From Melastoma dodecandrum (lineage: Eukaryota; Streptophyta; Magnoliopsida; Myrtales; Melastomataceae): a stretch of DNA of 64,000 nt. Positions 7,090 through 39,092 of this stretch are shown here, piece by piece. Location: the NCBI GenBank assembly GCA_029817715.1, contig JARUPY010000154.1, positions 3,127,501 to 3,191,500 on the forward strand, in the 5' to 3' direction. The notes beneath the pieces were generated by a model. That model saw nothing but the letters and a program-made list of their open reading frames with translations. It had not been told where the DNA came from and made no database searches. The translations under genes were made by a program, and so were the position numbers. The first letter of the stretch is position 1, and each line of letters begins with the position of its first letter.

Positions 7090-8848
7090 ACATAAATAAT
7101 TCACCTGATTCTTTCTTCGGCACATTTTTCCTTTTATTATATTCGAGATGGAACATGATTTTATTTTTCAAATAGTTATATATATTTATGTGATCTAAAC
7201 TCTTATTAAAAATATGATTTTCACTAATTAACACACCTTTTAATGCTTGCGCCTAGGAGACACCGATTCACTAGAATAATAATAATGTTATACAAATTAA
7301 ATACTACATCTGTGAAATAATATATCTGTGTCTTGAACTAAATAAACTGTCGCTAGCGTAAATAAACAAGGAAATAGAGAATATTGGGGAGTGTGGTAGT
7401 AGGAGCATGGGAATGGGAAGGCATGATGTGTGGAATTGGGAGCTTAAAAAAGCGCAACCTTCGAATCAAGAAAAGGGCTGACACGCCGATGTTTCTCCAT
7501 TGTCTCCCCCCTCCCACAAACCTTTTCTCGAAACATTTTTTCCCCCCCACACCAAGCCATCCATCATTTTGGGTTTTCTTACATGCTTTTGTCTGTTGGG
7601 GAGTGGTGTTTCCTTCCTTTTTATTTGTTTCCTAGGCTCCTCGTAACTGTTGCAAAATAAAATAAAATAAAATAAAATAAAAAGAATTCCTTTAGCAAAC
7701 CCAATAAGAAATTTTCTTCTTCTTTATGAACAAGAAAAAAAAAAGTTTCATTTTTTGAGATTAATTTAATCGACCCAATAGAAACGAGGAAATGGGTAAT
7801 CTCAATGTGGTGTTAAATTAGGCACCCCAAAAAGCAAAATGGCCGGAAAAGCATGGAAAGAAGCAAGGGTCGTCCATGCTTTTTAATGGGGACAAGTGAA
7901 CACACGATCAGATAAGGGGAATATTGCTTTTTGTCTCCCCTGATAATGACCCATTCTTAATGAATCCCACTTAAAAAAATAGACTAACGAATCGTGTTTA
8001 TAATCAATCCCCTCCACTCCACTCCACTCCACTAGAGATTATCAAAGCGGTGGGGAGGGGGGACATCATTCAGGAGACAAAGCTGGGGTCCACCATTTTG
8101 ACATCATGTGATTTAGTCCCTATGCAAATAAAGTGCATAAATCCAACCCACTAGTGCACTCTCCCCATCTCTTTTTTCTTTTTACAAAAAAAAAAAGAAA
8201 AATAGAACATATTCAGATTCAAGTCACCATCCTTTGAGTATTTATCAACTTTAGTAAATGTTTTGGTTGAACGATATTTGTCATAGTTAATAATGTGTTG
8301 GTCACGTGAGATCCCAAATGTGTGTCCAAAAGAGTTGGTTTGTGTCTCTTTTTTTTTTAAAAAAAAATGACACGACCCTGTGAATCTCTGAATCGATGAT
8401 ATTTGTCCCTTTGCAAATCAAGGTTTTCCCCCCCACAATAAAAAAATAAATAGCAAGGGGACATCATTAAAATCTCCAAACAAAAATATGTCCAATTAGA
8501 AAGAATCTGAAGAAACAAAACCAAAAATCAGAACCCACTTTTTTAATTATTGACACAAATACATTTTGGACTGTTGTGGCTTGTACTCATTTCAAGTAAG
8601 TTGTAGTATCAAAAAAAGTTAATTTATTTAATATACACTAATTTTTTTTAAAACATTTTTGTTTTAGTTAAAATGTTCAGTTAATTTCCGTACTAAGGTT
8701 ATAAGAGTTTGAACTGAAACCAAACTAAACTCAAAGACTTAGAAGTTACTCCAAACAACTGCACTGATCCGATCTTCATCGATCTCTGCTTCTTCTTCTT
8801 CTTCCTCCTCCTTGTCATTCGTGGTTGATTCTTTGCATCTCGTGCAAG
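7090..8848. other. PIN promoter and intergenic region
   Basis: About 1.75 kb of AT-rich DNA without a gene. It holds an AAAAT-unit repeat near 7655-7682, a CCACT-unit repeat near 8010-8033 and several poly-A/T tracts. The 5' UTR of the PIN gene, just before the ATG, is CT-rich (near 8785-8815). The TGTCTC sites are listed separately. Confidence 0.5.
7501..8348. promoter_or_regulatory. Four TGTCTC auxin-response-like sites
   Basis: TGTCTC occurs on the plus strand at 7501-7506, 7932-7937 and 8343-8348, and as GAGACA at 8074-8079, all within 1.35 kb upstream of the PIN start. The six-base core is the classical ARF-binding element. Under one match would be expected by chance in this length, so the excess is mild. 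Regulation by auxin is inferred. Confidence 0.35.
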
Positions 8849-11020
8849 ATGATCTCCGCGTCCGACTTCTACCATGTTATGACCGCGGTCGTACCGCTCT
8901 ACGTTGCGATGATCCTCGCCTACGGCTCCGTCAAGTGGTGGGGGATCTTCACCCCGTTGCAGTGCTCCGGGATCAACCGGTTCGTCGCGCTATTCGCCGT
9001 ACCCCTACTTTCGTTCCACTTCATCGCCTCCAACAACCCCTTCGCTATGAACATACGGTTCCTGGCGGCCGACACCCTCCAGAAGCTCGTCGTCCTTGCA
9101 GCTCTCTTCCTCTGGAATAGGATCACTGGGTATCCCTCCCTCGACTGGACCATTACCTTCTTCTCGCTGTCCACGCTCCCGAACACCCTTGTCATGGGAA
9201 TCCCACTGCTGAAGGGGATGTACGGCGACTTCTCCGGCAACCTCATGGTCCAAATCGTCGTCCTCCAGTGCATTATCTGGTACACACTCATGCTTTTCCT
9301 GTTTGAGTACAGGGGAGCTAAGCTCCTTGTAGCGGAGCAGTTCCCCGATGCATCTGCTGGGACAGTTGTTGCAGTACACGTCGATCCGGACGTCGTCTCG
9401 CTGGATGGCAGACTCCCTCTTGAGACTGAGACGGAGGTCACGGGTGACGGGAAGCTCCGCGTGACTGTCAGAAGGTCGAATGCCTCCCGGTCGGACATTC
9501 TCTCTAGGAAGTCATTCTCCCACGCAGGAGATGGGGGGTTCGGGTTTGGTTCCACCACTCCCAGGCCGTCGAACCTCACCAATGCCGAGATTTACTCCCT
9601 GCAGTCATCTCGGAACCCGACCCCTCGTGGCTCAAGCTTTACCCACGCGGACATCTACTCGATGATGGCAGCACCTGGGGGGGCATCCAGGGGACCAGCC
9701 CCTCGTCTGTCCAACTACGAGGATGATCCCCATGGTGCGCATGTTAACAACGCCAAGACCAGCAGGTTCAACCCATACCCTGGCCCCAACCCGGGGATGT
9801 TCTCACCGAAGAGAGCCCTTGGCTCCGGCGTCGATCCACGAAAGACCAGCAACGGGAAGTTGGAAGAAGGCCGCAAGGACCTGCACATGTTCGTATGGAG
9901 CTCAAGCGCTTCCCCTGTTTCCGACGTATTCGGAAATGGCGGCCCCGCCCCCGAGCAACCCAAGGAAGTCCGGCTTGCGGTTTCCCAGGGGAAGGTAGGC
10001 TCTGAGAATCCATTTCCCAGCACAGAACCCTACCTAGAGAGGAACGAGCTTAGCTTCGTGAACAGAGAAACCGAAACCAATCTCATCGAGAACAGGACGA
10101 GCACCCCGGCCGCAGCCGGGGAAGGGAAACCGAAGGCCGTGCCGCCAGCTGGAGTGATGACGAGGCTGATACTGATCATGGTCTGGAGGAAGCTAATCAG
10201 GAACCCAAACACTTACTCCAGCCTGATCGGAATCACCTGGGCCTTAATCTCATTCAGGTTGCACCCCTTAATCACTCCATCCGTCACTATTCGATTAAAG
10301 ATTAAATCTTCGGGTCTAATTATAATCCAATTTCCGAATCCATGATCTGGGTTTCGTTTCCATTTGTGTTTCCCCAGGTGGGATGTGAAGATGCCGGCGA
10401 TCTTAGCTGGGTCGATATCGATACTGTCGGATGCAGGGCTCGGCATGGCCATGTTCAGCCTTGGTCAGTCCAATAATATTATTGGGAATCTCATCTTCAC
10501 GCTGGTCAGAATACGATGATGACATGAATTGTTGTTTCTCCCTTCTTTTCCGACAGGGCTGTTCATGGCATTGCAGCCGAGGATCATAGCCTGTGGGAAC
10601 GCTGTTGCAGCTTTTGCCATGGCCGTGAGATTCCTTGCAGGCCCAGCTGTCATGGCCGCTGCCTCTGCCGCCGTTCATCTTAAAGGCAACCTATTCCGCG
10701 TCGCCATTGTTCAGGTTACCTCCTGCCTGTTTCGATGATTCTTTTCTCAGCTAATGACCCCCGCCAACTGTTAGAATCGTCCTAACATTCGCTCTTTCTC
10801 GCAGGCTGCACTGCCGCAAGGGATAGTTCCCTTTGTGTTTGCCAAGGAGTATAATGTTCACCCTGAAATCCTCAGCACAGGGTGAGTTAAACAGACTAAA
10901 TCAACCATAATTCGGGGGGGTTATGCTAATTAAACTTGTTCTTTACTCTGCAGGGTGATATTTGGGATGCTAATTGCTCTGCCCATAACTTTGGTCTACT
11001 ACATACTCTTGGGCTTATGA
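8849..11020 (+). CDS. PIN1: PIN auxin efflux carrier, PIN1 clade
   Basis: Long-loop PIN protein that exports auxin at the plasma membrane. Exons 8849-10257, 10378-10463, 10557-10714, 10805-10881 and 10954-11020 keep phase and give 598 residues. The N-terminal membrane bundle starts [20 protein letters not shown]; the C-terminal bundle ends YYILLGL-like at the stop. The central hydrophilic loop (about residues 155-440) carries the repeated phosphorylation motifs [14 protein letters not shown] and [14 protein letters not shown], the targets of PID/D6PK-type kinases. [15 protein letters not shown] and [14 protein letters not shown] segments favour PIN1 over PIN2 or PIN3. The ATG at 8849 is chosen because upstream codons in frame are not family-like. 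The exon 1 to exon 2 junction falls in the conserved SF(R/K)W codon. Confidence 0.95.
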
Positions 11021-17683: not shown

Positions 17684-17904
17684 ACCCCTAACTAAATCCA
17701 AATCTCCGTTTTGCCCAGGCATTACTATTGATGGGCCCTGACCGGTAGGCCAACTTTGGGGAACAGCGCGCGGCTTTTGCATGAATCATCATCATATGCA
17801 CTGTTTCTTGTATCTATACTTTCGACTTGTTTCAATTTTATCCTGCTTATCTTAGTCTCTAGGTTAACTTTCCCAGACAATAAGAAAATTAATTCTTCTT
17901 AAGC

Positions 17905-17917
17905 GGCTCTGATACCA
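17905..17917 (-). promoter_or_regulatory. Initiator tRNA-Met primer-binding site
   Basis: TGGTATCAGAGCC on the minus strand is the 13-base complement of the 3' end of plant initiator tRNA-Met, the primer for minus-strand DNA synthesis in caulimovirids. It lies about 560 bases downstream of the predicted RNA start, a normal leader distance for the family. The motif is also used by some LTR retrotransposons; the neighbouring genes make the viral reading much more likely. Confidence 0.85.
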
Positions 17918-17940
17918 ATAAACTAAACCAGATATCGAAC

Positions 17941-18294
17941 TTAAGAAGATTTTCTTTGTTGTCTTTGTCGCCGGCGTTCTGCCAACCTCCAATACTCGTT
18001 TGAGTACCTCGAACTTGCCGCAAACCCAAGATTGGATTTACCTTCAAGGAAATATTCCTCAAATTCACTCTGCAAGAGAGTCAGCTCTTCTAATTTTTTA
18101 GAATAGCTATCTACAAGTTCAGTCAGCTGCTGGATTTGCGCTGAGATACTTGCCAATCGATCTACTACAGTGTTTAGAAGTCCAGTAGCAGAATCCTTGC
18201 CCACACCGTGATCCAAATGTAGGAGCTCGGGATTTGGACAATCAGTCATAAGACTCTTGCTTTCGCAACCGTCGTGCTGTTGCACCACCTTCAC
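17941..18294 (-). CDS. Leader-region coiled-coil frame, virion-associated-protein-like
   Basis: Open frame of 117 codons between the viral promoter and the primer site. It opens after a stop at 18307-18309 and has no ATG at its head; the first in-frame ATG is near 18249. The encoded peptide has a central heptad-like region (about residues 40-75, rich in Leu, Ile, Glu and Ser) and a strongly basic tail with arginine and glutamine. A coiled coil followed by a basic tail is the general plan of caulimovirid virion-associated proteins, but I cannot show homology. Non-AUG starts and spliced leaders are known in the family. It could also be a chance frame, though its composition argues against that. 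Confidence 0.45.
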   Translation of the reverse strand: MKVVQQHDGCESKSLMTDCPNPELLHLDHGVGKDSATGLLNTVVDRLASISAQIQQLTELVDSYSKKLEELTLLQSEFEEYFLEGKSNLGFAASSRYSNEYWRLAERRRQRQQRKSS

Positions 18295-18503
18295 AATCTT
18301 ATTAGATTATGACGATTATCATAAACTACACAGCGGAAAGTTTATCATACCTTAACTCAGTGGGTTGCTCAGGGGGTTCACCAAGCTTCCGCGACAATAG
18401 AGATCCAAGAGAAGCACAATTCTCAAACTAGAGAATTCAGCGAACGTATCCGCAAACTGGAGAGGCTCTTCTGTGTCGTTCCAATGCCCTTACACTGAGG
18501 GTC

Positions 18504-18510
18504 TTATATA
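18504..18510 (-). promoter_or_regulatory. Viral TATA box (pregenomic RNA promoter)
   Basis: CTATATAAGACCC on the minus strand, about 340 bases after the end of the last long frame, resembles the TATA region of caulimovirid full-length transcript promoters. RNA would start near 18,478. A second weaker TATA-like stretch (GTATATATTC) is near 18,745. Activity cannot be judged from sequence. Confidence 0.6.
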
Positions 18511-18846
18511 GACACTCCTCATCCAAGGTTTCAGCCCAAAGCTATACTCCCTGCAAGGTTCTTGATCCTTCGATCTGACCTTCCGTTAGTTTTAACCAAT
18601 GTTGATTAATTCTAACCACCTTACTCTTGATTCCTTAAGGTATTCGGAGAGCGATTCAGAGATTTTCTTACTCAGAGTTTTTGAGAGAGAATTTCTCTAT
18701 TCGATTCGCCTCCCCAAATGAAGTAGAGGGCTTGTGAATATATACACAAAGGAGCTGGTGCCTATGCACTGTTTGCCAGCTCAAAAGAAAAAGGAATCTT
18801 AACTGTTGCTAGAGTTAGTGGGGTCCTACTGACCGACAAAAATGTC

Positions 18847-21120
18847 CTAGTCTAACTTTATACAGTTATCTTCTCCCGTCTGCATTGGCTTGCTGTTCTG
18901 GGAGACTCCTTCACTGTCGTTGGCTCTTAAAGTTCCGCCAACTCCTTCTTTTTCTGAGAGTCCCGGTGGGTCTTGGACAGCATTAAGAATTTGCTGGACT
19001 CTCTCTGCATTATGCTCAATTTGCTGATTTAAGGTCTTGTCGGTGAAATCAGCAATCTTGCTCCAAACCTCAAAGGTGTCGGTTCGGAGGTGCAGCTCAG
19101 AGTTCTCTTTCCTCCAGAAGCTATCTAGAAGGTCGAGCATTCTCTGCCATCCTCGGTCTCCTGCTTGTTCGTCGATGAAGCTTAAGTTTGACCGAAGAAT
19201 CGTGACGGTGATCACACCATCACAGAGCACGTAGTATTCGTCCTTGCGGGCTAACACATGCTCTAGCACGTCTTTAAGGAACTCAACTTTTATGGCTTTT
19301 CGGACAGTCTTGTCCTTGTAGTATTTCCGCCATAACCCTCTCTGATCGAGGTCTTGTTTATGAGGTTCCGTCATACGTCTACTCTCACATGGATGGATGT
19401 CCCATACTTGCAGATTTTGAAGTATTACCTTCCCATACTGCGGATGGTCTTCTTCCTCCATCATTGTGCTAGTAATCAACGCCGTGGCATACTTTGGTCC
19501 GTAGCCTAGGCATCCGAGTATATACCTTACCAACGTAGGCAGCGGTTCCATACATTCTGGTTCTGATCTGTCGATCTCCAGCATGTCAACAAACCCAGCA
19601 TACACATAAGGCGCTGCTACTCCCACCATATCTGAGTGAATTCTCAGAGACGGCCACTTCCCCGATATCCAGTGTAGATACGGTTGAAGCACAGTGTTTT
19701 CCTCAAGAGAGGATTCACTCATGTCTACTGTTACCATTGGGACGTCATATTCTCTAACTTCTCCCGGTATTATAGACATTGTTGTGGAGAATATCTGCTG
19801 TCTTTCTTTCTCAAATCGAGACAGCTCCTCCTCACCTGAAGTCATAACCGATAGTTTAAACTCCAGATCTTTGATGTACTCAACGGTCTTTCTTGCGAAA
19901 AACTCAATCTGGCGTTTTTCATCATGCTTAATGCCAGCCATGAGTCCTCCACAGACCACTGCCGCATCCCAACTTAGGGATTCGTCCTCAAATGAGTCTT
20001 CATCAAAAAACCAGGATCCTTCCAGATCCTCTTGGGTTTTCCCAACATGGCCTTTGCCATCGTGGTTCTTACCCCCGTGACTGCTGTCACCAGACTCCTT
20101 GACTGAGTCTTTCACAGGAATTACTTCCTCAAGGCTTTCTTTCTTTTCCAGATTACCTTCCAATGCTGCGTAAGCACTTCCGAAGTCGAAGTACTGCTCA
20201 CACTCCATTGCAGCCGCTTCCTCTGGTTCTTCCCTAGGTTCAGGGTCTACCACTTGGATTGGCTCGCCAATCAAGGCCTTAAACTTAGCCTCTTCCTCAG
20301 CATACTGTGTTTCCATATCCTCTTTCTGTTCCTCCTTGCTTTGTAACAAAGCCTTGTAGGATTTCACAGCTTGATTAATGGAAATTTTCTGCTCTTTGGC
20401 TAAGTGGTTTCGGCAGTAATTGAACTGCTCCATGGTCAATGGAGACCACCAAGGTTCTTCAACCCTTCCGTCCTTCTTAGGACCATCCTTTGCAGAATCA
20501 TCCCCTTTGGGACCAGAAGATCTAAGCCTCTTGACTTTCCTCTTCTTCCCGGCCTTCTCTTCTGACTCAGCTTTTGCTTTGTCTTTCAGATCTGCCGTTT
20601 TCACATCTCTTCTGGAGTTTTCCTCCTTCAGATCTGTCGTCTTCTTTTGAAGATCTTCCTTCACATATCCTTTAGAGTTGGTGTTACCCTTCTCCTTCAG
20701 ATCTGTCTTTCCCTTCTGGGAAACTCTCACTTTCTCTTTAGGATCGGTTTTTACCTTTCCCTTAGATCCAGCCATCCCCTTCTGGGATTCTTTCGCTTTT
20801 CCCTTAGATCTGGCTTCTGCCTCCTTAGGATTAGCCATCTCCTTCTGGAGATCTTGTTTCGCTTTACTTTCGGAGTCAGCTTTTGCTTTCTCCTTAAGTT
20901 CAGCCTTCCCCTTCTGGGAATCCGCAGTTTTCAGCTTCTTAGGACACTCATAAGAGCGGTGCCCGAGTTGCTTACACTGCCAGCAAAGCACTGCTGCCTT
21001 TGTTCCTGAAACAGAACCAGCATCACTATGCTCACCATCTCCCTTGTTAGGACATACCTTTCGGGAATGTCCCTCCTTCTTGCATCCCCAGCATATCTTT
21101 CTCTTTGCAGCAGGATCCAT
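18847..21120 (-). CDS. Third viral frame: double zinc-knuckle protein of unknown role
   Basis: About 757 codons from the ATG at 21120, overlapping the end of the polymerase frame by 74 bases in another phase. Residues 10-23 and 46-59 each form a CX2CX4HX4C zinc knuckle. Residues about 65-220 are very rich in Lys, Glu, Ser and Asp and consist of degenerate repeats (see the repeat entry). An acidic, serine-rich middle follows. A compact C-terminal domain of about 300 residues with several Trp, Tyr and Cys has no family I recognise. By position it takes the place of the transactivator/inclusion-body gene, but I see no transactivator motif. It is uninterrupted. It may be a nucleic-acid-binding, translational or inclusion-body protein; this is inference only. 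Confidence 0.7.
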   Translation of the reverse strand: MDPAAKRKICWGCKKEGHSRKVCPNKGDGEHSDAGSVSGTKAAVLCWQCKQLGHRSYECPKKLKTADSQKGKAELKEKAKADSESKAKQDLQKEMANPKEAEARSKGKAKESQKGMAGSKGKVKTDPKEKVRVSQKGKTDLKEKGNTNSKGYVKEDLQKKTTDLKEENSRRDVKTADLKDKAKAESEEKAGKKRKVKRLRSSGPKGDDSAKDGPKKDGRVEEPWWSPLTMEQFNYCRNHLAKEQKISINQAVKSYKALLQSKEEQKEDMETQYAEEEAKFKALIGEPIQVVDPEPREEPEEAAAMECEQYFDFGSAYAALEGNLEKKESLEEVIPVKDSVKESGDSSHGGKNHDGKGHVGKTQEDLEGSWFFDEDSFEDESLSWDAAVVCGGLMAGIKHDEKRQIEFFARKTVEYIKDLEFKLSVMTSGEEELSRFEKERQQIFSTTMSIIPGEVREYDVPMVTVDMSESSLEENTVLQPYLHWISGKWPSLRIHSDMVGVAAPYVYAGFVDMLEIDRSEPECMEPLPTLVRYILGCLGYGPKYATALITSTMMEEEDHPQYGKVILQNLQVWDIHPCESRRMTEPHKQDLDQRGLWRKYYKDKTVRKAIKVEFLKDVLEHVLARKDEYYVLCDGVITVTILRSNLSFIDEQAGDRGWQRMLDLLDSFWRKENSELHLRTDTFEVWSKIADFTDKTLNQQIEHNAERVQQILNAVQDPPGLSEKEGVGGTLRANDSEGVSQNSKPMQTGEDNCIKLD
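20540..20935 (-). repeat. Degenerate Lys/Glu coding repeats in viral frame 3
   Basis: Units of roughly 30-45 bases encode variants of Ser-Lys-Gly-Lys and Asp-Leu-Lys-Glu-Lys. At DNA level, CCCTTCTGGGA- and CTTTCGCTT-like words recur on the plus strand. The pattern looks like repeated slippage followed by divergence, with reading phase kept. Confidence 0.6.
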
Positions 21121-24100
21121 CTGCAGAGTTTTTTGAAAGAGAGGTATTTGCAAGTTCTCTAGAGAGAGAGTCAGCTATTATGTTGTGGTCGGACTTAATA
21201 TATTCGACCTCGTATTTATAATAGCTTAACAGTTCCTGTAACCTCAAGAGTCTAGTTTGCCTAGCTTCCTTAAGGTTCAGACTCATAAACCTTTTTACAT
21301 AGGTCGAGTCAGAGCGCACTAAAAATGCTTTCGGTGCCAAAAAGATGTAAAAAGCCTTTATTCCATATTTTAAGGCTAATACTTCCTTTTCATGTATCGG
21401 GTACCGTAGTTCGTACCCCTTGAAGCTTCCCGACCAGTATTTGCATACCGGTTCTGGTTTTCGTCCTCTAATTTTGAGGACTGCTCCCCAATAATTTTCA
21501 GAAGCATCAACTTCCAAGACTAACTCATCTTTATCAGATGGTAAAGCTAATTGTGGTAAATTCTTTACCTTTGCTTTAATCCTTTTAATGGACTGAGTGT
21601 CTTCATCTTCCCATTTCCAAGGACTTGTAGAAGAGGTTTTCTTCGAAATCCTACTGAGGTCTCGGGAAAGATTTTTCACAAACTTTCTTGCATAGTTAGC
21701 GCATCCACAAAATCTTTGGACTTGCTTCCTATCCTCAAGTCTGTCAGGAAAATTAACTATTTTTTCAGCAATATGATTTTGCAGTTTGATTTTTCCCTGC
21801 TCAATCTCCATGCCTAGAAAGTTAACTGATTCCTTAAACCATTCTATCTTCTTTTCTGATAGAATCATTCCTTCCCGTCGGAAGATATCAGTCACCTGGT
21901 CAAGGTGTCTCATGTGTTCATCCTCAGTCTGGCTGTAGATTAGCACATCGTCTATATAGACTGCACAAAATTTTCGGATTTGCTTGAAAGCATTATCCAT
22001 TTTGCGCTGAAACACGCCTGGAGCATTCTTCAGACCGAATGGCATAACCAACCATTCAAACATTCCTCGTGGAGCATTGAAGGCAGTTAGAGGAACCGAC
22101 TCTTCTTCCATTTTGACTTGCCAGTATCCACTTTTCAAGTCAAATTTAGAAAAGTATTTTGGTTGACTCAAACTAATCCTATCAATAAGATCTCCCGCCG
22201 TTGGAATCTTATAGCCATCGTCCTTTGTAGCTTTGTTAAGCTGACGATAATCTATAACCATTCGTGCTTTACCTCGCACCTGCTCGGCATGGTTAATTAC
22301 CATAAAGGCTGGACTAGAATGCGGACTGTAACTGTCCCTAATCAAACCTTTTCCAAGCAACTCAGGAATTTGTTTATCAAACTCCTCAACCATCTCAGCC
22401 GTATACGTAATGTTTCTGGCTCTTATAATGGTTCCGGGATCTTTCAACTCTAATCTAGCTTTTAGGCCATTTCGAGTCCATAACTTTAGTGGATCTTCAC
22501 TAAAATTATCGGCCAGTTTTATTAGGAACTTATCCCATTTTGTTCCCATTAACTTGACAGCCATACACACTTCCTGTTTTGGATTTCTAAACAGGTCGTC
22601 ATACCAGCTACTGGTATTCGTTGGAGAAAACAGGGTTTGTACCCATGACTCGTTCTCATCCAACCGCCGTATATCACCACGTTGAGCTCGCACTCTGAAC
22701 GCTCTTTCACATGGGATATCGCCACAGTATTCTGTCCGTTTTACCGGATAAAAGCCAAATTTTAACCGAAGTCTAGGCTCTCTTAGAATACTTATTTTTA
22801 CCCCACCGATGGAAACATCATTTTCATTCTGCACAAAAGGGAGGTTTTCCTTTTGTCCCTTCAAAAAGGCGTTACCAATAATGATGTCGGCCTCTAGTAA
22901 AGGATGTGCAAGAATCTCTTTAATGATGAACTTTTGTCCACCAATAAAGACAGGCACGTTGCTTGCCTTATGACCAACAATTGTGGCCATACCATCGACG
23001 TTAACCATGTGGATGGGTTTCTGCAGTGGTTCCCACCACTCATCTGGCAGAGCATTGAGTCTAGCACAAGTTGTGCTACACCCAGTATCTATCAAAGTAT
23101 CCAGGGAATACTCATAGTATCCAGGAAATTTGAAAGTTAGAGCCACATATGTGCTCAAGTCTTCCTTCCTAACACTAAACCCAATATTCTCAGGTACACT
23201 TTGGGATGGTTCTATCATCCTCCAGATATCGTCTATAGCGATAGACCTTTGCTTGGCTATCTGCTCGATAACCTTACAAACTTCAGGAATCTCAGATAAA
23301 GAGTTACCAATATTAGTTACTCTTAGCATCCTTATAGATTCCTCTCTCGGTTGATCTACAGGGTCTTCATAGACTGGTAATGATACCTGTCTATACCCTA
23401 CGATTCTACCCGTATGTTGCGACGGGGTTCTTGAATCAACAGACCTTCGAGACATCTCTTCTATTAGCGGGGGTGCACTTGCAACCTCTGGTCGAGAGAC
23501 TATTACGTCTTCTCCCACATCACTAACTCTTGAAGAGACTTCAGAGGGCGTTCTATTGAACGGCTCTCTCAGGATTGGCATCCTCACAGGCAAATGCCTG
23601 TCAGCTCTTTCGCTAAGCATAGGCAAATGCCTATCAGCTCTAAAACTGTCCCTAGACGGTTCTCCCAACATCAAAGTAATCTCATTACCTCTTTGTCGGA
23701 TATTGGCCGCACTAATCGGCCTAGAGCTAGTACCAGGTTCAGTCATAACCCAGTTTCTCGGCCAGGTTAACTCTAATGGGTTTACCTCTCGCCTATGGAA
23801 CTGTTGGTAGTTGTTATGACCTTCCTCGAACAACTCTGTAAGTCTAGAGATGTTCCTCACACCAGGACTAGTGGTGTTTACCAATCGGTAAATTACCCTA
23901 GTGTGATACGCTAAAAACTTGGCCTGGGAATTCATCCTATCCATATTCATTGATTTGATCCTTAAGGTCAATGAATTTCCCAAACAGCGATCGTTCAAGG
24001 CCATCATGAAATTTGGATGGACTTGGAACCATACCGGGCCATGTGCTAGGTTGGCCTGTATACCTGATATCAGCTGATCTCGAAACTCTCGCCAACGTTT

Positions 24101-24190
24101 ATCGATCACTGCTGCTACCACAGGACTATCCGCTGGTAAATGAAACAGCGGGACTAATCCTATCTGGATCAACCCAATGTGTATATAGAG
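21047..24190 (-). CDS. Viral frame 2: movement-protein core, protease, RT, RNase H
   Basis: The frame opens just after a stop at 24191-24193, has no ATG until 24007, and ends at 21047. Numbering from the TTG at 24172: residues 1-100 are the main part of a 30K-type movement protein; 140-330 is a variable linker; the aspartic protease triad Asp-Thr-Gly is at 362-364; reverse transcriptase spans about 590-800 with Tyr-Ile-Asp-Asp at 739-742; RNase H follows at about 885-1010. All catalytic motifs are present and no stop interrupts. Lack of a start codon and the split movement protein mean it must be expressed with frame 1, by frameshift, or else it is broken in this copy. A short tandem duplication (two copies of a seven-residue unit) is at about residues 179-195. 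Confidence 0.88.
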   Translation of the reverse strand, partial: LYIHIGLIQIGLVPLFHLPADSPVVAAVIDKRWREFRDQLISGIQANLAHGPVWFQVHPNFMMALNDRCLGNSLTLRIKSMNMDRMNSQAKFLAYHTRVIYRLVNTTSPGVRNISRLTELFEEGHNNYQQFHRREVNPLELTWPRNWVMTEPGTSSRPISAANIRQRGNEITLMLGEPSRDSFRADRHLPMLSERADRHLPVRMPILREPFNRTPSEVSSRVSDVGEDVIVSRPEVASAPPLIEEMSRRSVDSRTPSQHTGRIVGYRQVSLPVYEDPVDQPREESIRMLRVTNIGNSLSEIPEVCKVIEQIAKQRSIAIDDIWRMIEPSQSVPENIGFSVRKEDLSTYVALTFKFPGYYEYSLDTLIDTGCSTTCARLNALPDEWWEPLQKPIHMVNVDGMATIVGHKASNVPVFIGGQKFIIKEILAHPLLEADIIIGNAFLKGQKENLPFVQNENDVSIGGVKISILREPRLRLKFGFYPVKRTEYCGDIPCERAFRVRAQRGDIRRLDENESWVQTLFSPTNTSSWYDDLFRNPKQEVCMAVKLMGTKWDKFLIKLADNFSEDPLKLWTRNGLKARLELKDPGTIIRARNITYTAEMVEEFDKQIPELLGKGLIRDSYSPHSSPAFMVINHAEQVRGKARMVIDYRQLNKATKDDGYKIPTAGDLIDRISLSQPKYFSKFDLKSGYWQVKMEEESVPLTAFNAPRGMFEWLVMPFGLKNAPGVFQRKMDNAFKQIRKFCAVYIDDVLIYSQTEDEHMRHLDQVTDIFRREGMILSEKKIEWFKESVNFLGMEIEQGKIKLQNHIAEKIVNFPDRLEDRKQVQRFCGCANYARKFVKNLSRDLSRISKKTSSTSPWKWEDEDTQSIKRIKAKVKNLPQLALPSDKDELVLEVDASENYWGAVLKIRGRKPEPVCKYWSGSFKGYELRYPIHEKEVLALKYGIKAFYIFLAPKAFLVRSDSTYVKRFMSLNLKEARQTRLLRLQELLSYYKYEVEYIKSDHNIIADSLSRELANTSLSKNSADGSCCKEKDMLGMQEGGTFPKGMS

Positions 24191-26271
24191 TTATATACAC
24201 CTCTCGCGTTACGCATGGTATTTCTTATGCGTTGTACATTCAAGAGTGGGATATCCAAAGTCTCAAGCTCAGTGCTTGTGACTTGCGCTGTCGCCTCTGT
24301 CTGCGAGATATCTATTGTGGATCTAAACCTAAATCTCGATACTTCATAAATTTCTCTTGCATTGACATTTGGCAACCTCCATTCCAGAATTGACTGGGAT
24401 GGATCTTCATACTGGCGGGTTTCCTCCAGTATCTGATTAGTTGTTTCCAAGGGAACCAACTCATCTCCATCTCCTTCCCTTTCTGCTCGCATCATGAACA
24501 GATGTTCGGTCCAGAAATCAGAATCATCATCTGAGTCTGTATCATAATTAGACACAACCTCATATATAGATTCTACTTCCGAATCTAGATCGGAAATCTC
24601 TTGCTCATCAATTGGCTCGTAAGCAAGGATTTCTTCCTCACGACTCCTGTCATCTAGGAAGACCATACGGAGTCTTTCTCTCCTTTGGTTTTTCTTCGGA
24701 CAACTGTCCGCTTTGTGGTCTTTTGAACCACAAAACCAGCAGCAATTACAACTGCTCAAAGGTTTCCCTTTAGGACATTTAGGCTCTCTGCCATGCTTTC
24801 TCTTGAAAGCATCAATCCTATCTTTATCCTTCAGGTTATCCCTTCTCCTCACAAACCTCTTTGGTTTGTAAGCAAGACTTCCCCTTTGCTTACGCTGGAC
24901 GTCCTTCTTGGGCCAAACTTTCTTTTTGTTGTACCCAACGAACTTCCTTGTTTTACGAGGAAAGTTCCTTCTCTTTAGAGAATCACCGGTCGTACTGCGA
25001 GTATCGCATCCGTATCTTCCCGGCACATATTCTATCTGAGAACAACAGCTCTTATTCAGGTAAGGTAGCTTCTTAGCTGCCTCTTTTACCTGAAGCTCAG
25101 TACATGCTTTGCGCATCGCGTACTTCACCGCCTGAATTTTTCCTCCGAGTCCCGAGACTATCTTTTCCTCACTCAGGAGTAATTCATAGGCCTTTTGCGC
25201 AACTTCCGGCCATGGTTCGGGAAGTTTTGCAAAAAAGGTTCCTAATATGAACTGTTGAGATACTACATCCAGATTGTAATAATACCTCTGGAATTCACAC
25301 ACGTAGTTATCAAAATAGCACATATCACAGATCTGTAGCTTAACCAGAGCGGTCAAGGACTGCTCTTTTTCCACCGTCTCAGTGGATAATGAGAAACCAC
25401 AGAACTCTCGTTTCAGGGCATCAGCAATTATTGCCAATACTCCGTCAACCGTCAGCGCTTGATCTATTTTTTCCTTAATGTCTGTGTGTGCCACTAAGGT
25501 TTTCCAGTACTTCTGCGCTGTACCCATGAGGGCTGCCACACACAATTCGTAGACCGCGCCAGGAGGTACTCCTCCTGCAGATGCTGTCATCCGAATAAGT
25601 GATATCCACTCATCTATCTTTTCAGATACATGCTTTTCACAATCTATATCTAGAAAAGCACCCGGGGTAATTATTGGCTTTAGAATATTATCCCTTGGGA
25701 CAAACTCTTGTTTAGTCCGATGTGGATAATCAGGCCTGTAAATTTCCCTCTTCGCAGTTACCAGCTCATTAAACGTTCTGTTGTCTAAATGAACCGGGGT
25801 ATCTTCTGCCAGGCCTAAGGCTTTCCTTAGGTCCTTTGCCAACTCCCCACTTTGGGAGTTCAAGTTTGCACTTCGCTTTTGTGAGTCTAAAATGAAAGGA
25901 GCCACTGACTCCTTATACATTTCATCCACACTTTTGCCTTGATTCTGTTTGGAATTTCTTCCTCCCAGATTCAATCTTTCGACTGGTTTTCCTGTAGTAC
26001 TTTCCAGTCCAGAGGTAGCCTCGGCTTCAGGCCTTTTTAAACCTCTTTCTTTTTCCAGGGCGTCTAACATTGTATTTACAATGGAGCCTACTTCCTTTGC
26101 CATTTGGTTTCGGCTTTCTAGACTTTCATTGCTCCCCTGAATCGTTAGCTGAGTTAAAATATCATTTATACTCTTGCTAACTCCAAATGGAGACAATCTA
26201 GCCTCTGGAACGAACTCCATCCTTGGAGGAGTCCCAGAAGGATTTCCTGAAGATCTACCTTCTCCAGCCAT
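24169..26271 (-). CDS. Viral frame 1: coat protein plus movement-protein N-terminus
   Basis: 700 codons from ATG at 26271. Residues about 190-400 are a caulimovirid-type coat-protein core, 430-490 is strongly basic, and a CCHC zinc finger has its ligands at Cys511, Cys514, His519 and Cys524. An acidic stretch (545-590) follows. Residues from about 632 resemble the N-terminal part of the movement protein, whose core continues in the -1 frame. Coat protein ahead of movement protein is the order I recall for cavemoviruses; badnaviruses and petuviruses have the reverse. The frame is uninterrupted to its stop at 24169-24171. Confidence 0.82.
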   Translation of the reverse strand: MAGEGRSSGNPSGTPPRMEFVPEARLSPFGVSKSINDILTQLTIQGSNESLESRNQMAKEVGSIVNTMLDALEKERGLKRPEAEATSGLESTTGKPVERLNLGGRNSKQNQGKSVDEMYKESVAPFILDSQKRSANLNSQSGELAKDLRKALGLAEDTPVHLDNRTFNELVTAKREIYRPDYPHRTKQEFVPRDNILKPIITPGAFLDIDCEKHVSEKIDEWISLIRMTASAGGVPPGAVYELCVAALMGTAQKYWKTLVAHTDIKEKIDQALTVDGVLAIIADALKREFCGFSLSTETVEKEQSLTALVKLQICDMCYFDNYVCEFQRYYYNLDVVSQQFILGTFFAKLPEPWPEVAQKAYELLLSEEKIVSGLGGKIQAVKYAMRKACTELQVKEAAKKLPYLNKSCCSQIEYVPGRYGCDTRSTTGDSLKRRNFPRKTRKFVGYNKKKVWPKKDVQRKQRGSLAYKPKRFVRRRDNLKDKDRIDAFKRKHGREPKCPKGKPLSSCNCCWFCGSKDHKADSCPKKNQRRERLRMVFLDDRSREEEILAYEPIDEQEISDLDSEVESIYEVVSNYDTDSDDDSDFWTEHLFMMRAEREGDGDELVPLETTNQILEETRQYEDPSQSILEWRLPNVNAREIYEVSRFRFRSTIDISQTEATAQVTSTELETLDIPLLNVQRIRNTMRNARGVYNSIYTLG

Positions 26272-26488
26272 TCAGAAAACCTGACCTTAAGACTTCAATG
26301 GATATTTTTGAAATTGGGTCTAAGTTCTGGATACAGAGAGATACCTTTTGAACCTTAGGGTAGATTTGAAAAACTTTGTAAATATGGGGATATTTTTGAT
26401 AAAGCGGCCATCTATTAATTACTCTTTTTTTCTTGATATCTAGTGTCGTTGCTTGTGTCCGAAATCTTACAGTCAGGGGGGGGAACAT
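26255..26488 (-). CDS. Short basic frame overlapping the start of viral frame 1
   Basis: 77 codons, ATG at 26488, stop overlapping the first 17 bases of the coat-protein frame. The peptide is rich in Lys, Arg, Tyr and Ile. Small frames upstream of the main viral gene are common in caulimovirids, and overlap with the next ATG suits termination-reinitiation. No family is recognised and it may lie partly in host DNA, so confidence is low. Confidence 0.3.
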   Translation of the reverse strand: MFPPLTVRFRTQATTLDIKKKRVINRWPLYQKYPHIYKVFQIYPKVQKVSLCIQNLDPISKISIEVLRSGFLNGWRR

Positions 26489-34671: not shown

Positions 34672-36759
34672 TTATGAATCCCTCGAGTCGCTGACCTGAT
34701 CCGGCTGCTGGGTATTCTCTCTCCAGCTGTAACGGCATAGATCCTCGATCCGCCTCGTTACTTCGGACATCGAGGGACGCTGGTCCGGATACTGAGCAGC
34801 GCAGTCAACGGCGAGCTGGAGGAGATCCACCATCTGCTCCTCAATGTTCTGGTACCTTAGGAGCTCGAGGTCGAAGACTTCCGAGGTCCATTCCTCTCGT
34901 ACCACCGACTGCACCCAACGAGGAAGGTCCACGCCTTCTTCATTTAGGAGAGAGTTCGTAGGAGCTTTCCCGGTCAGAAGCTCGAGGAGTAACACCCCAA
35001 AGCTGTAAACGTCTGCCTGCTGAGACACTTTGCGGGGGTCGGTAACCTCGGGTGCCCGGTAACCCGCAACACGTGTAGGAGAGGAGGGAGGGCCAACGAG
35101 TTGGGCAAGGCCGAAATCGGAGACACGAGCGTCATAGGACTTTGTCAGTAGAACGTTGGATGACTTGATGTTCCCATGAGAGACGTTGGGACCTTGTGAG
35201 TGCAGATACTGGATGCCACGGGCGGCCCCGAGGGCGATGGTCGATCTCATTTCCCAATTCAATGGAGTCTTACTGGCTCCCTTATTTCCTACAACAAGAA
35301 TACGAGAAATTACAAAAGAGACGAAGACAATCGGGATGGCATCGTACACAAACAGAAAGCAAAAACAGATCTGCGCACCATGCAACAGAGCAGACAAGCT
35401 TCCCGTGGGCATGTAATCATAAACAAGAAGCTTCTCGTCATTGCTGTAATAATAAGCCATCAGCGGCATCAAGTTCTCATGATCCATCGCCCCAACAGCT
35501 TCGATCTTCTCTCGAAACTCCGCAGCTGGGATGGTCACGTCCCTCAACCTCTTCACAGCCACCATGATCCCAGCCTCCAAAACAGCCTTATAAGCAGTAC
35601 CAAATGTTCCTTTCCCCAAGACTTCCGCAGAAGCTCTCAATAAGTCCTCCAGGCCAAAAACCTTCCCTGATTTCCCCATAAACACCAGCTTTCTCCCCTC
35701 GACACCGCCGTTCATCTGTCTCTCATTTCCCACCGTAGGGGCTGCAACCGGAGCTGTGACCAAGCTCCCGTTACCCATGTACCCTCCTCCGACCTCATAA
35801 GCCCCATCACGCATCCCATCCTGAAGCCCCATTTCCTGATGCTTAATGGTCGCTATATCGACCGACCTCGTACTTTTCCGACCCATTCTACGGCAGATGA
35901 ATATAAGCAATATAAGGAGGAACAGGAACCCGAACACACAACCTATCACGATTCCGGCCAGCACAGACCCGGATAGCTTCTTCCTCTTCACTCCAGCGTC
36001 ACCCCCACTGTTGCTGCCGCCACCAGCGGCATCCGCTCCCTCACTACTGTTACCACCGCTAGGGGAAGGCAGCACGATATCCTTGGAACATGAAGCCAGA
36101 GGCTTCCCACACAAGGAGTTGCCCAAGAACGAGGTGCCGTCGAAACCCTGCAAATCCTCGGGGATAGACCCATTAAGCTGGTTAGCAGACACGTTGAACT
36201 GCACAAGATTCAACCCTTTAATCCCCGCAGGAATAACTCCGGAAAGCTGGTTACTTTCCAACAGCAAAGTCCTAAGCCTAGTCAACTTCCCAAACCCTGC
36301 GGGGATCGGACCAGAGAACTCGTTCCCGGCGAGGCTCACCCTAACGAGACCCTTCAGCTCAAGCAGAACCCCGGGAATGCTCCCGGAGAGCCGGTTCCCC
36401 TGTAAGTACAAGTTCCTCAACTCGACGCAAGACCCGAGATCCGGGGGGAGAGTCCCGGACAGTGAGTTCATCCGCAAAGACAGGGTCCTGAGCTGGGTCA
36501 AGTTACCGAAAATGCCGGGAGGGATGGCGCCGGAGAGGGACGAACCGGGCAGGCGTAGGGCGACGACGCGTGCGGAGTCGCATTGGACGCCAGGCCAGCT
36601 GCAGGGGGTGAGGGAGGTGGTGTTCCAGAGGAGGGTCCTGCCGGAAAGAGCCGATCGGAGGGACAGGAGGGCGGCGCGGTCGGACGAGAGGTCCGATGCT
36701 GCCGCAAAGGAAAGGAAATAATGGAGGTGAAGAAGGAAGGCTAGGAGGGGAAAATGCAT
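34672..36759 (-). CDS. LRR receptor-like kinase, subfamily III (RLK902/RKL1-like)
   Basis: Two exons, 35379... to 36759 and 34672-35288, joined across a 90-base intron (35289-35378) that has no stop and stays in frame, so retention would add 30 residues. Spliced length is 665 residues. Order: signal peptide (1-22), LRR N-cap with CSWPGVQC, five or six LRRs (65-205), a Ser/Gly-rich spacer, transmembrane helix (about 267-289), then kinase domain from about 375. The glycine loop GKGTFGTAYKA and Lys403 (VAVK) are present and DFG is kept. The catalytic loop reads HGNIKSSN instead of HRDxKxxN, so the catalytic aspartate is missing. This is typical of subfamily III and suggests a pseudokinase or weak kinase. 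Its place in the block agrees with At3g17840 (RLK902). Confidence 0.94.
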   Translation of the reverse strand: MHFPLLAFLLHLHYFLSFAAASDLSSDRAALLSLRSALSGRTLLWNTTSLTPCSWPGVQCDSARVVALRLPGSSLSGAIPPGIFGNLTQLRTLSLRMNSLSGTLPPDLGSCVELRNLYLQGNRLSGSIPGVLLELKGLVRVSLAGNEFSGPIPAGFGKLTRLRTLLLESNQLSGVIPAGIKGLNLVQFNVSANQLNGSIPEDLQGFDGTSFLGNSLCGKPLASCSKDIVLPSPSGGNSSEGADAAGGGSNSGGDAGVKRKKLSGSVLAGIVIGCVFGFLFLLILLIFICRRMGRKSTRSVDIATIKHQEMGLQDGMRDGAYEVGGGYMGNGSLVTAPVAAPTVGNERQMNGGVEGRKLVFMGKSGKVFGLEDLLRASAEVLGKGTFGTAYKAVLEAGIMVAVKRLRDVTIPAAEFREKIEAVGAMDHENLMPLMAYYYSNDEKLLVYDYMPTGSLSALLHGAQICFCFLFVYDAIPIVFVSFVISRILVVGNKGASKTPLNWEMRSTIALGAARGIQYLHSQGPNVSHGNIKSSNVLLTKSYDARVSDFGLAQLVGPPSSPTRVAGYRAPEVTDPRKVSQQADVYSFGVLLLELLTGKAPTNSLLNEEGVDLPRWVQSVVREEWTSEVFDLELLRYQNIEEQMVDLLQLAVDCAAQYPDQRPSMSEVTRRIEDLCRYSWRENTQQPDQVSDSRDS

Positions 36760-39092
36760 TGTTGGGTGTGGCGCAAGATTGCAACTGTTTTCCTGGGTTG
36801 AGGGAAGAAAAAGAAGAAGGGTTTTGATTTTGAGTGTGGGCTTGAGTTTGAGTTTTGAGTTCACATACGAAGCAGCAGCCTGCCTGGGAGGGAGAAGAAG
36901 AAGAAGAAGATGGCGGTGGCTGTTTTCCACCTTTGCCCTCGCAATCCTCCCCCGCCCCCCCTGGCTAAATACTACTTCCCCCACTTAAAAGAAATTAAAT
37001 ATGCATACTCAATAAATTTCTGCATTTTCTTGGAAAATTAAAAATATAAAACATTCATTCATTCACTATCAAGTTCGGACATTGTATTATTTACCATAAT
37101 TTCCTCTTAAGTTACATGATGTTTTCTTTTTTTTACTTTCTCTTTTTCTATATAGGATTCTCTACCACCTCATAATATTTTTATCTTTGTTGACTTGTTT
37201 TCCACCTCATCATCATGAAACGAGCAAAGAAGAAAACAGTACGAAAATATAGATATTATTATTTTTCTCTTTTGGTCTGGGGGGTACACATTAAAGAAAA
37301 AGGTGAAAGAAAAGACCGTTCGAAATTTAAAGTGGGGTCCAAACCAAATGAATTATTATTATTATTATTTATATTTAATTATCATAGTTTTCCCATAAGA
37401 CAAAAAAAGTCAATCGTTTTCTCTAAGTAATGTGTGCGTGTAAATAGTAATGATAATAAATACCCAATTTTTAAATACAAAAAAATACATTCAAACTTGT
37501 TAATTTCATGAATAATGTGTGGTTATGTTAAGTCGGGGAGTGGTCAGATGAGCAACACACTAATAATTATGTTTAGGTGGGATGATTGGATGAAAATTGG
37601 TCACCATCCATCAATTCTTTTATTTCTTCTTATGCCATGCCTTCTTTCTAATAATACATTCACATTTCCAATCACGGTTCACCAACTATCTAACCAAACC
37701 CAATTTATTACTAAATCCCCCCTCATCGCCTGTCAATGATAAAACATACTTAATTTGAAAGTAAATATAATGCAGTTGAAAATAAATATAAAGTATCAGT
37801 TTTAATTAGCTCAACGTTGTCGAAAGGAAACCTTCCATCCTACTGCAATGCGACTCCCTCAGTTGTTATCAACTTCAATCTTCCTTCCCTTTTCTTTAAC
37901 TTGGGCCATCCACAGCCCGTTATTTGGGTAATAAACAAATGGCCCAAAATAGCCACACGATCTCTGTCTGGTAATAAAATTAGAAGAAACACGAAGCGAT
38001 GGTAAGAACCTTGAAGACCTTAGAAGACCAATTCCTAAACTGCAATTTCTTGTCAAAGAAAAGCCTGGTCTGGTTGCAAATACTGCTCATCCTGATTCTT
38101 CCACGGTTCACACAATCCGCGACTTTTGATCCCATCTCAAAAAATCATCCATCATATTTTTTTCATCACCGCCCTATGAATATGTATTTTTTCCCAGTCG
38201 GTTACCTAATCAACAAGTAGGTTTCCATTGAGAGACTGACTTTTCCATTGGGGGGGGTAATATAATAATAGAAACTTCCTGGTGGTGCTTCTGGCTCTGA
38301 CCTCCTGTTTGTTCAACTCTCGTTGCATCAAAGATTTAGGGATTTTGGTGGGGGGGAGGTCAAAGTTATTTAGGTCTGACAGATTTTTGTTCCATGGTCA
38401 AATTTCTGCTGCTATTGTCCAAATTGCAAGAATAGGAGGTCGGTCAAACAGGTCTCAATGGGCCAAAATACAAATACCACAAGTTCTACCTTGTCAACTC
38501 CCTTTCGTGTATGAGGATTCTTCCCCGCCACTCTACGCGGGCTTTTTCTAGATTCTGTAGCGATAAAGGTTGGCGGGGTCAATATCGACGTGGACGTCGA
38601 TCGGAAGGTTGGAAGGGAATTCAAGTGAAATCCAGGTTGATATTCTTTGGTTGTTGCTGCAGTAAAGTCCACGGAGATTCTTCTTGAGACTGACTGGAAG
38701 GATAGACATTCATTTTGACTCTCACGATTGCAGAAACCAGTCGAAGTTCACCCAGAAACGAAAGCAGTTAAAGGAAAAAATTGGAGTCGGGAAGGAGAGA
38801 ATGAAAGATTGAATGAATTAATGAATGGAAGCGAAGCTTCTGTACATGTACAAACTGTGATCCATGATCAGGGATCTCTCTCTCCTTCGCTAGACATACG
38901 TAGTTTCTCTTCCCAATTTCACGCCTAAGCCGCTATCGTTGTTAAGATTAAGCTCAAAGAATCAATGAATGATTAAGCTACTCGAAACAATTCGATGGAT
39001 CCATTATTCCTTCCCCTCTCTTCCCTTTCGAATCTAGACCTAATTCCTCTGCTAACCCTCCTTTCCTGACTACAGTCTTAGACATAAGGCAT
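36760..39092. other. Receptor-kinase promoter and intergenic DNA
   Basis: About 2.3 kb. A GAAGAA-repeat 5' UTR-like stretch lies near 36,893-36,910, followed by AT-rich DNA with poly-A/T runs and an ATT-unit repeat near 37,350-37,370. Several short frames occur but none is recognisable. The part near 38,700-39,092 may hold the Nudix 3' UTR. Confidence 0.4.

Follow-up and report, generated by a model that had tools for sequence, protein, structure and literature searches.

A coat-first endogenous caulimovirid in Melastoma dodecandrum with a terminal double zinc-knuckle reading frame

Gene content of the locus

The window analysed here, a stretch of 64,000 nucleotides (nt; 64 kb) of Melastoma dodecandrum DNA (contig JARUPY010000154.1, positions 3,127,501 to 3,191,500), carries a caulimovirid element on its minus strand, from about 26.3 to 17.9 kb. 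Three long stop-free frames, at 26271-24169, 24190-21047 and 21174-18847, hold 700, 1047 and 775 codons, the last counting 757 from its first ATG, as a first-pass annotation of this DNA had reported. By comparison, the longest stop-free run in 300 first-order Markov sequences generated from the same region is 283 codons, and the mean of the maxima is 139. Pfam matches, the frames and a pattern scan for zinc knuckles place coat protein, movement protein, protease, reverse transcriptase (RT), RNase H and a zinc-knuckle open reading frame (ORF) in this order along the element, which is also the order that the annotation had given. The genes and domains are as follows (aa, amino acids; P with a number denotes a protein found in the searches described below):

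24169..26271, minus strand: ORF1, 700 aa, coat protein and N-terminal part of the movement domain (frame; Pfam PF22909; tblastn with P0004, P0005 and P0013)
25057..25371, minus strand: caulimovirus coat domain, ORF1 residues 301-405 (Pfam PF22909, 37.4 bits against a cut-off of 27)
24700..24741, minus strand: CCHC zinc knuckle of the coat protein (pattern scan)
24169..24190, minus strand: overlap of the ORF1 and ORF2 frames, inside the movement domain (frames; tblastn)
23870..24166, minus strand: C-terminal part of the movement domain, profile positions 82-179 of 191 (Pfam PF01107, 6.5e-12)
21047..24190, minus strand: ORF2 frame, 1047 codons, remainder of the movement domain, aspartic protease, RT and RNase H (frame; Pfam; tblastn with P0004)
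22811..23155, minus strand: aspartic protease (Peptidase_A3), DTG at residue 362 (Pfam PF02160, 5.5e-11)
21803..22276, minus strand: reverse transcriptase, YIDD at residue 739 (Pfam RVT_1, 9.8e-38)
21218..21532, minus strand: RNase H (Pfam RT_RNaseH, 1e-16)
18847..21120, minus strand: ORF3, 757 aa from the first ATG at 21120, in a frame open from 21174 (775 codons; frame, homology to P0124)
21052..21093, minus strand: first CCHC knuckle of ORF3 (pattern scan)
20944..20985, minus strand: second CCHC knuckle of ORF3 (Pfam PF00098, 23.3 bits against 20.8; pattern scan)
20449..20931, minus strand: lysine-rich linker of ORF3, 41 lysines in 161 residues, partly repeats (composition; direct repeats)

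In addition to DTG and YIDD, ORF2 contains RNase H-type motifs, and we take all three to be its catalytic signatures. The element has one protease region only, matched by PF02160 and, at the same place, weakly by RVP. The best match of ORF2 in the PDB is 8r0s, an ‘Enzymatic polyprotein’ (1.9e-126); ORF1 matches nothing there at E up to 1. Knuckles of the form CX2CX4HX4C occur three times in all six frames of the 64 kb, once in the coat protein and twice in ORF3, and the coat motif is also readable in P0004 and P0005.

The domain set is that of the Caulimoviridae, comprising a 30K movement protein (here split), a coat protein, a pepsin-like protease, RT and RNase H1, together with a tRNA-Met primer site in the leader. 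In the three ORFs, Pfam detects no integrase family at E up to 1; on this ground, and because the coat and movement domains are caulimoviral, a long terminal repeat retrotransposon was rejected. The flanking genes are plant-type, encoding a pentatricopeptide repeat protein (4831-6933), a membrane transporter (8825-10345) and a leucine-rich-repeat kinase (34672-36984), and the presence of viral features between such genes marks the locus as a viral genome inserted into gene-bearing DNA of a plant. The element is thus a real, integrated caulimovirid, and the annotation was right to call it endogenous. Between 18001 and 26000, GC and AT skew are negative on the plus strand in all four 2-kb blocks, so that the viral coding strand is purine-rich. 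Self-comparison of the window gives no matches, no long terminal duplication is present among the repeats listed (20 of 55 direct families and 25 of 33 inverted pairs), and the window holds no match to any Rfam family at or above the gathering score.

Beyond the end of ORF3 lie the features of a putative leader:

18739..18744, minus strand: TATATA box, candidate pregenomic promoter (string search; role proposed from position)
17941..18249, minus strand: leader ORF of 102 aa, coiled-coil-like by eye, with a basic, arginine-rich end (no Pfam family above cut-off)
17906..17917, minus strand: tRNA-Met primer-binding site TGGTATCAGAGC, exact over 12 bases (sequence search)
17886..17957, minus strand: hairpin with arms flanking the primer-binding site (inverted repeat I18, arms 83% complementary)

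A second TATATA is found at 18510 by string search. The 810-nt leader-like stretch folds more stably than 20 of 20 shuffles (z -3.97). The 102-aa ORF stops 23 nt before the primer-binding site and, as we see it, recalls the small virion-associated proteins of other caulimovirids. The primer-binding site is the only zero-mismatch match in the 64 kb; when up to two mismatches are allowed there are six matches, no more than expected by chance (mean 3.84; 18 of 100 shuffles reach six). The hairpin around it has a fold z of -3.4, with an equally stable fold in none of 200 shuffles. The printed primer site of WolV1 begins with the same 12 bases (PMC13308828).

Phylogenetic placement and gene order

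A protein search, limited to lengths of 0.55-1.75 times the query, returned 647 matches, of which 120 are listed. RT-RNase H trees were built from these, with P0079 left out as too short: a quick tree of 79 of the 120 and the window, and a careful tree of 50 rows (49 of the 120, picked for spread, and the window), rooted on nine rows taken as clade B on the basis of host and domain make-up rather than names. In the careful tree the window forms a clade with P0004 (5309-nt ENA contig) and P0005 (6475-nt JGI contig) at a support of 100/100; the Fragaria rows P0010 and P0012 join this clade at 81/60, and the whole joins the badnavirus/Dioscovirus group at 97/91. The quick tree agrees on the same three nodes (99, 84 and 95). 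Placement in clade A is supported: 41 rows, including the window and every row named as Caulimovirus, Ruflodivirus, Badnavirus or Dioscovirus, are separated from the nine outgroup rows at 100/100. P0004 and P0005 share the domain order of the window but differ from it in forming a single uninterrupted polyprotein, and a double-knuckle ORF in the slot that TAV occupies in other members is known in place from the window only. Relatives were also sought in viral contigs, where none was confirmed.

Approximately unbiased (AU) tests reject the union of the window clade with the three Caulimovirus rows (strawberry vein banding virus, SVBV, Pueraria virus A and Metaplexis virus; p 0.0003), with the Ruflodivirus row (Rudbeckia flower distortion virus; p 0.0018) and with a six-row Badnavirus/Dioscovirus set (p 1.8e-85), all of these p-values being optimistic because the groups were defined with the tree already in view. 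The six-row set comprises three named badnaviruses, DNUaV, a Rhynchospora protein and one unnamed protein; the labelling of the three named rows as Badnavirus and of DNUaV as Dioscovirus is our assumption. Eupatorium vein clearing virus, an unclassified Caulimovirus, stands outside the three-row test, in which Pueraria virus A and Metaplexis virus were labelled by database lookup and SVBV is a Caulimovirus according to PMC11359110.

Over RT-RNase H the window is 57.0% identical to P0004, 54.1% to P0005, 46.9% to P0013 and 47.6% to the Fragaria protein P0010, and its identity to one row each of Caulimovirus, Ruflodivirus, Dioscovirus and Badnavirus is 44.4, 45.3, 40.0 and 40.4%, respectively. 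As yardsticks by the same measure, one Caulimovirus pair and one Badnavirus pair reach 67.8 and 63.8% within their genera, and two pairs between genera 54.6 and 52.0%. Over the RT core (235 aa) the identities are 64.3% for P0004, 61.3% for P0005, 58.6-59.1% for P0039/P0040 and 57.0-57.4% for three Fragaria proteins. A published genus-level cut-off of 62% (PMC13308828), which like the 55% used by PMC5766536 (as told in PMC10377300) refers to a segment and an identity measure different from ours, would join the window to P0004. Taken together, trees and distances suggest that a genus-level distance separates the window lineage from those named genera that were open to testing. This makes a new genus likely; it falls short of proof because the tree lacks named rows for seven genera of the International Committee on Taxonomy of Viruses and for most endogenous groups.

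Gene order was scanned in the six listed matches that carry both movement and coat domains. The coat comes first in P0004 and P0013 and the movement protein in P0050, P0066, P0075 and P0107; P0005 is also coat-first, by a coat match below the Pfam cut-off. Coat-first order is found in Cavemovirus, too, and the window differs in this respect from Badnavirus and Dioscovirus, in which movement precedes coat. The second coat-first polyprotein, P0013, which is sister to the Cornus florida protein P0046, is placed elsewhere in the tree. Since the AU test weakly rejects a union of this branch with the window clade (p 0.03), coat-first order may occur at two places in clade A.

Among described systems, wendoviruses resemble the window in layout, with a zinc-finger coat ORF, movement plus protease, protease-RT-RNase H and a conserved terminal ORF of unknown function (PMC9794742). 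They differ in having two aspartic protease domains in two ORFs, compared with one protease region in the window, and their last ORF is described there as lacking known domains, in contrast to the double knuckle of ORF3; this comparison is by description, no wendovirus sequence having been identified among the 120 matches listed. The order that the annotation had called unusual is indeed coat-first and uncommon, but it is not new, as wendoviruses have been published with the coat first and a terminal ORF. Solendovirus is listed with the similar order coat, movement, replicase, inclusion-body protein (PMC6003744); Solendovirus and Cavemovirus differ from the window in possessing a TAV homologue (PMC5902531), ORF3 having no Pfam viroplasmin match. 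Florendovirus (PMC4241990) and Wollendovirus (PMC13308828) resemble the window in combining a large polyprotein with a downstream ORF of unknown function; they differ in placing movement first and in belonging to clades B and C, and for their last ORF, of 45-58 kDa or 568 aa, the available parts of these accounts mention no zinc knuckle. EgEVE_1 from Eucalyptus, also of the Myrtales, was considered by description and set aside, as its authors place it near Petuvirus (PMC5452135).

The strongest alternative, doubtful yet a serious contender, is that the window is a member of a genus or endogenous group already described but without a named row in the tree, such as Vaccinivirus, Rosadnavirus, Xendovirus, Wendovirus, Zendovirus, Cavemovirus, Solendovirus, Soymovirus or others. 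No Vaccinivirus, Rosadnavirus, Soymovirus, Tungrovirus, Petuvirus, Xendovirus, Yendovirus or Florendovirus name appears among the 120 of 647 matches listed, many of which are nameless, so that unnamed rows may belong to some of these groups, and the length limit of the search would hide very long single-ORF polyproteins. Wendoviruses share the overall gene order, and Zendovirus is an element of Fragaria vesca (PMC5766536), the genus of the weakly supported sister rows; the proteins P0010-P0012 are probably Zendovirus, judging from their host. Like the window, P0010 has a long C-terminal stretch after RNase H and forms the nearest other branch, but it reads movement-protease-RT-RNase H with no Pfam coat match, its tail has no detectable similarity to ORF3, and its RT-RNase H identity of only 47.6% argues against a shared genus, just as the second protease domain does for wendoviruses and the TAV homologue for Solendovirus and Cavemovirus. 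The annotation's suggestion of an undescribed lineage therefore holds with respect to the named genera in the tree, while Vaccinivirus, Rosadnavirus, Xendovirus, Wendovirus and the like continue as candidates.

The split movement domain and the terminal ORF

The Pfam movement match lies at the very start of ORF2 and lacks the first 81 of the 191 profile positions. In the ORF1 frame, tblastn matches extend to 24172 for P0005, 24226 for P0013 and 24325 for P0004, and all three proteins resume colinearly in the ORF2 frame at 24187, which locates the frame change within the movement domain, either in the 22-base overlap or immediately before it. In P0004 (1583 aa), P0005 (1592 aa) and P0013 (1686 aa), by comparison, coat, movement, protease, RT and RNase H form an uninterrupted whole. 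Damage to the present copy is the simplest reading of the split, and the copy is probably dead; the description ‘nearly intact’ in the annotation fails on this point.

It is unlikely that the frame change is instead a working viral feature, reflecting separate genes or a programmed frameshift. Apart from the switch, the two frames stay open for 700 and 1047 codons, and consecutive long ORFs with short overlaps are frequent in the family (PMC5902531). However, the switch falls inside a domain that is unbroken in P0004, P0005 and P0013, ORF2 has no methionine before residue 56, and no canonical slippery heptamer is seen by eye in the overlap. In cauliflower mosaic virus (CaMV), moreover, frameshifting was excluded experimentally, there between coat and RT (PMC5902531).

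ORF3 overlaps the end of ORF2 in a different frame and is laid out as two CCHC knuckles within the first 75 residues, the lysine-rich linker and a C-terminal region. The terminal double knuckle claimed by the annotation is borne out, the second knuckle by Pfam and the pattern scan and the first by the pattern scan. Pfam finds only zinc knuckles in ORF3, with a single zf-CCHC above cut-off, and no viroplasmin/TAV family among its matches at E up to 1, a limit at which a distant homologue could escape. PHROGs holds no match to ORF3, and the PDB none to its C-terminal part, for which two structure models reach a mean predicted local distance difference test score (pLDDT) of 33 and 38, too poor for fold comparison. 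Homology to the C-terminal extension of the Fragaria proteins, or to the tail of the viroplasmin-containing P0057, was rejected for want of any hhalign signal. Direct repeats of 64 nt at 20661-20922 (minus strand), with start-to-start distances of 66 and 132 nt, encode part of the linker.

Searches with the whole protein and with residues 285-755 found a sole homologue, P0124, a hypothetical protein of Melastoma candidum (MLD38_026006, 481 aa) that is 83-84% identical to ORF3 in an alignment starting at ORF3 residue 280. By itself this match, from a species of the Myrtales, points to a melastome or a related plant as the host. These searches scored about 8000 candidates sharing most words, so that distant relatives may have been missed. 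Gaps between ORF3 and P0124 are short and both frames are open, which suggests selection on the protein, as would be expected of diverging viral genes; P0124 is probably another endogenous caulimovirid copy. That ORF3 is an adjacent host or transposon gene or a recent capture, rather than a standing viral gene, is very improbable: no homologue was found in other caulimovirids, but ORF3 overlaps ORF2, lies between RNase H and the candidate promoter and primer site, and occupies a slot that holds TAV or an ORF of unknown function in other members (PMC9794742, PMC5902531).

The double knuckle, the lysine-rich linker and the position suggest an RNA-binding accessory role for the ORF3 protein in the caulimovirus TAV slot. 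Several genera of the Caulimoviridae have no recognisable TAV homologue, and P6/TAV of CaMV has, in its C-terminal portion, both an RNA-binding domain and a Zn-finger domain without known function (PMC5902531). The novelty that the annotation saw in a terminal double-knuckle protein stands in so far as no double-knuckle terminal ORF turned up in the literature passages, and no caulimovirid with a second zinc-knuckle ORF among the titles and abstract openings listed, which does not prove its absence.

Interpretation and implications for the family

The best explanation of these observations, to which we assign a probability of about 0.6, is that a clade A caulimovirid of a lineage genus-distant from the testable named genera was integrated in a plant chromosome, that its ORF3 encodes an accessory protein, and that this copy is probably dead. 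Several points weigh against this explanation. Union of the window clade with a 13-row Caulimovirus/Ruflodivirus set is not rejected by the AU test (p 0.0535), and the Fragaria rows are joined to that clade with weak support (81/60). No row in the tree bears the name of Petu-, Cavemo-, Solendo-, Soymo-, Rosadna-, Vaccini- or Tungrovirus, or of the endogenous Xendo-, Wendo-, Yendo- or Florendoviruses, although unnamed rows may belong to these groups. Under the 55% cut-off the window could also merge with the Fragaria rows and many others. Finally, the proposed function of ORF3 is based on motifs and position, both structure models being poor.

By analogy with the family, a pregenomic RNA would be transcribed from the candidate promoter near 18740 and would bear a leader with short ORFs, minus-strand DNA would be primed by tRNA-Met at 17917-17906, and the coat-movement-protease-RT-RNase H polyprotein would be cleaved by its own protease. 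ORF3 would be made from the pregenomic or a shorter RNA as an RNA-binding accessory that occupies the slot of the TAV/inclusion-body protein and perhaps takes over its role.

A more specific proposal, held tentatively and at somewhat less than even odds, is that the window, P0004 and P0005 represent a new genus-level lineage in which an unrelated, nucleocapsid-like protein bearing two CCHC knuckles occupies the TAV slot and organises replication sites or polycistronic translation. If this were true, ORF3 would be a second nucleic-acid-binding protein beside the coat knuckle, in a TAV-free setting.

Endogenous caulimovirid lineages are often defined from RT alone, whereas the window shows a whole gene order. 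As rooted here, the window lies near the base of the group leading to the movement-first badnaviruses and is itself coat-first, and so bears on the timing of the coat/movement swap. Its terminal ORF3, with one detected relative, is a candidate for the protein that fills the TAV slot in caulimovirids that lack TAV.

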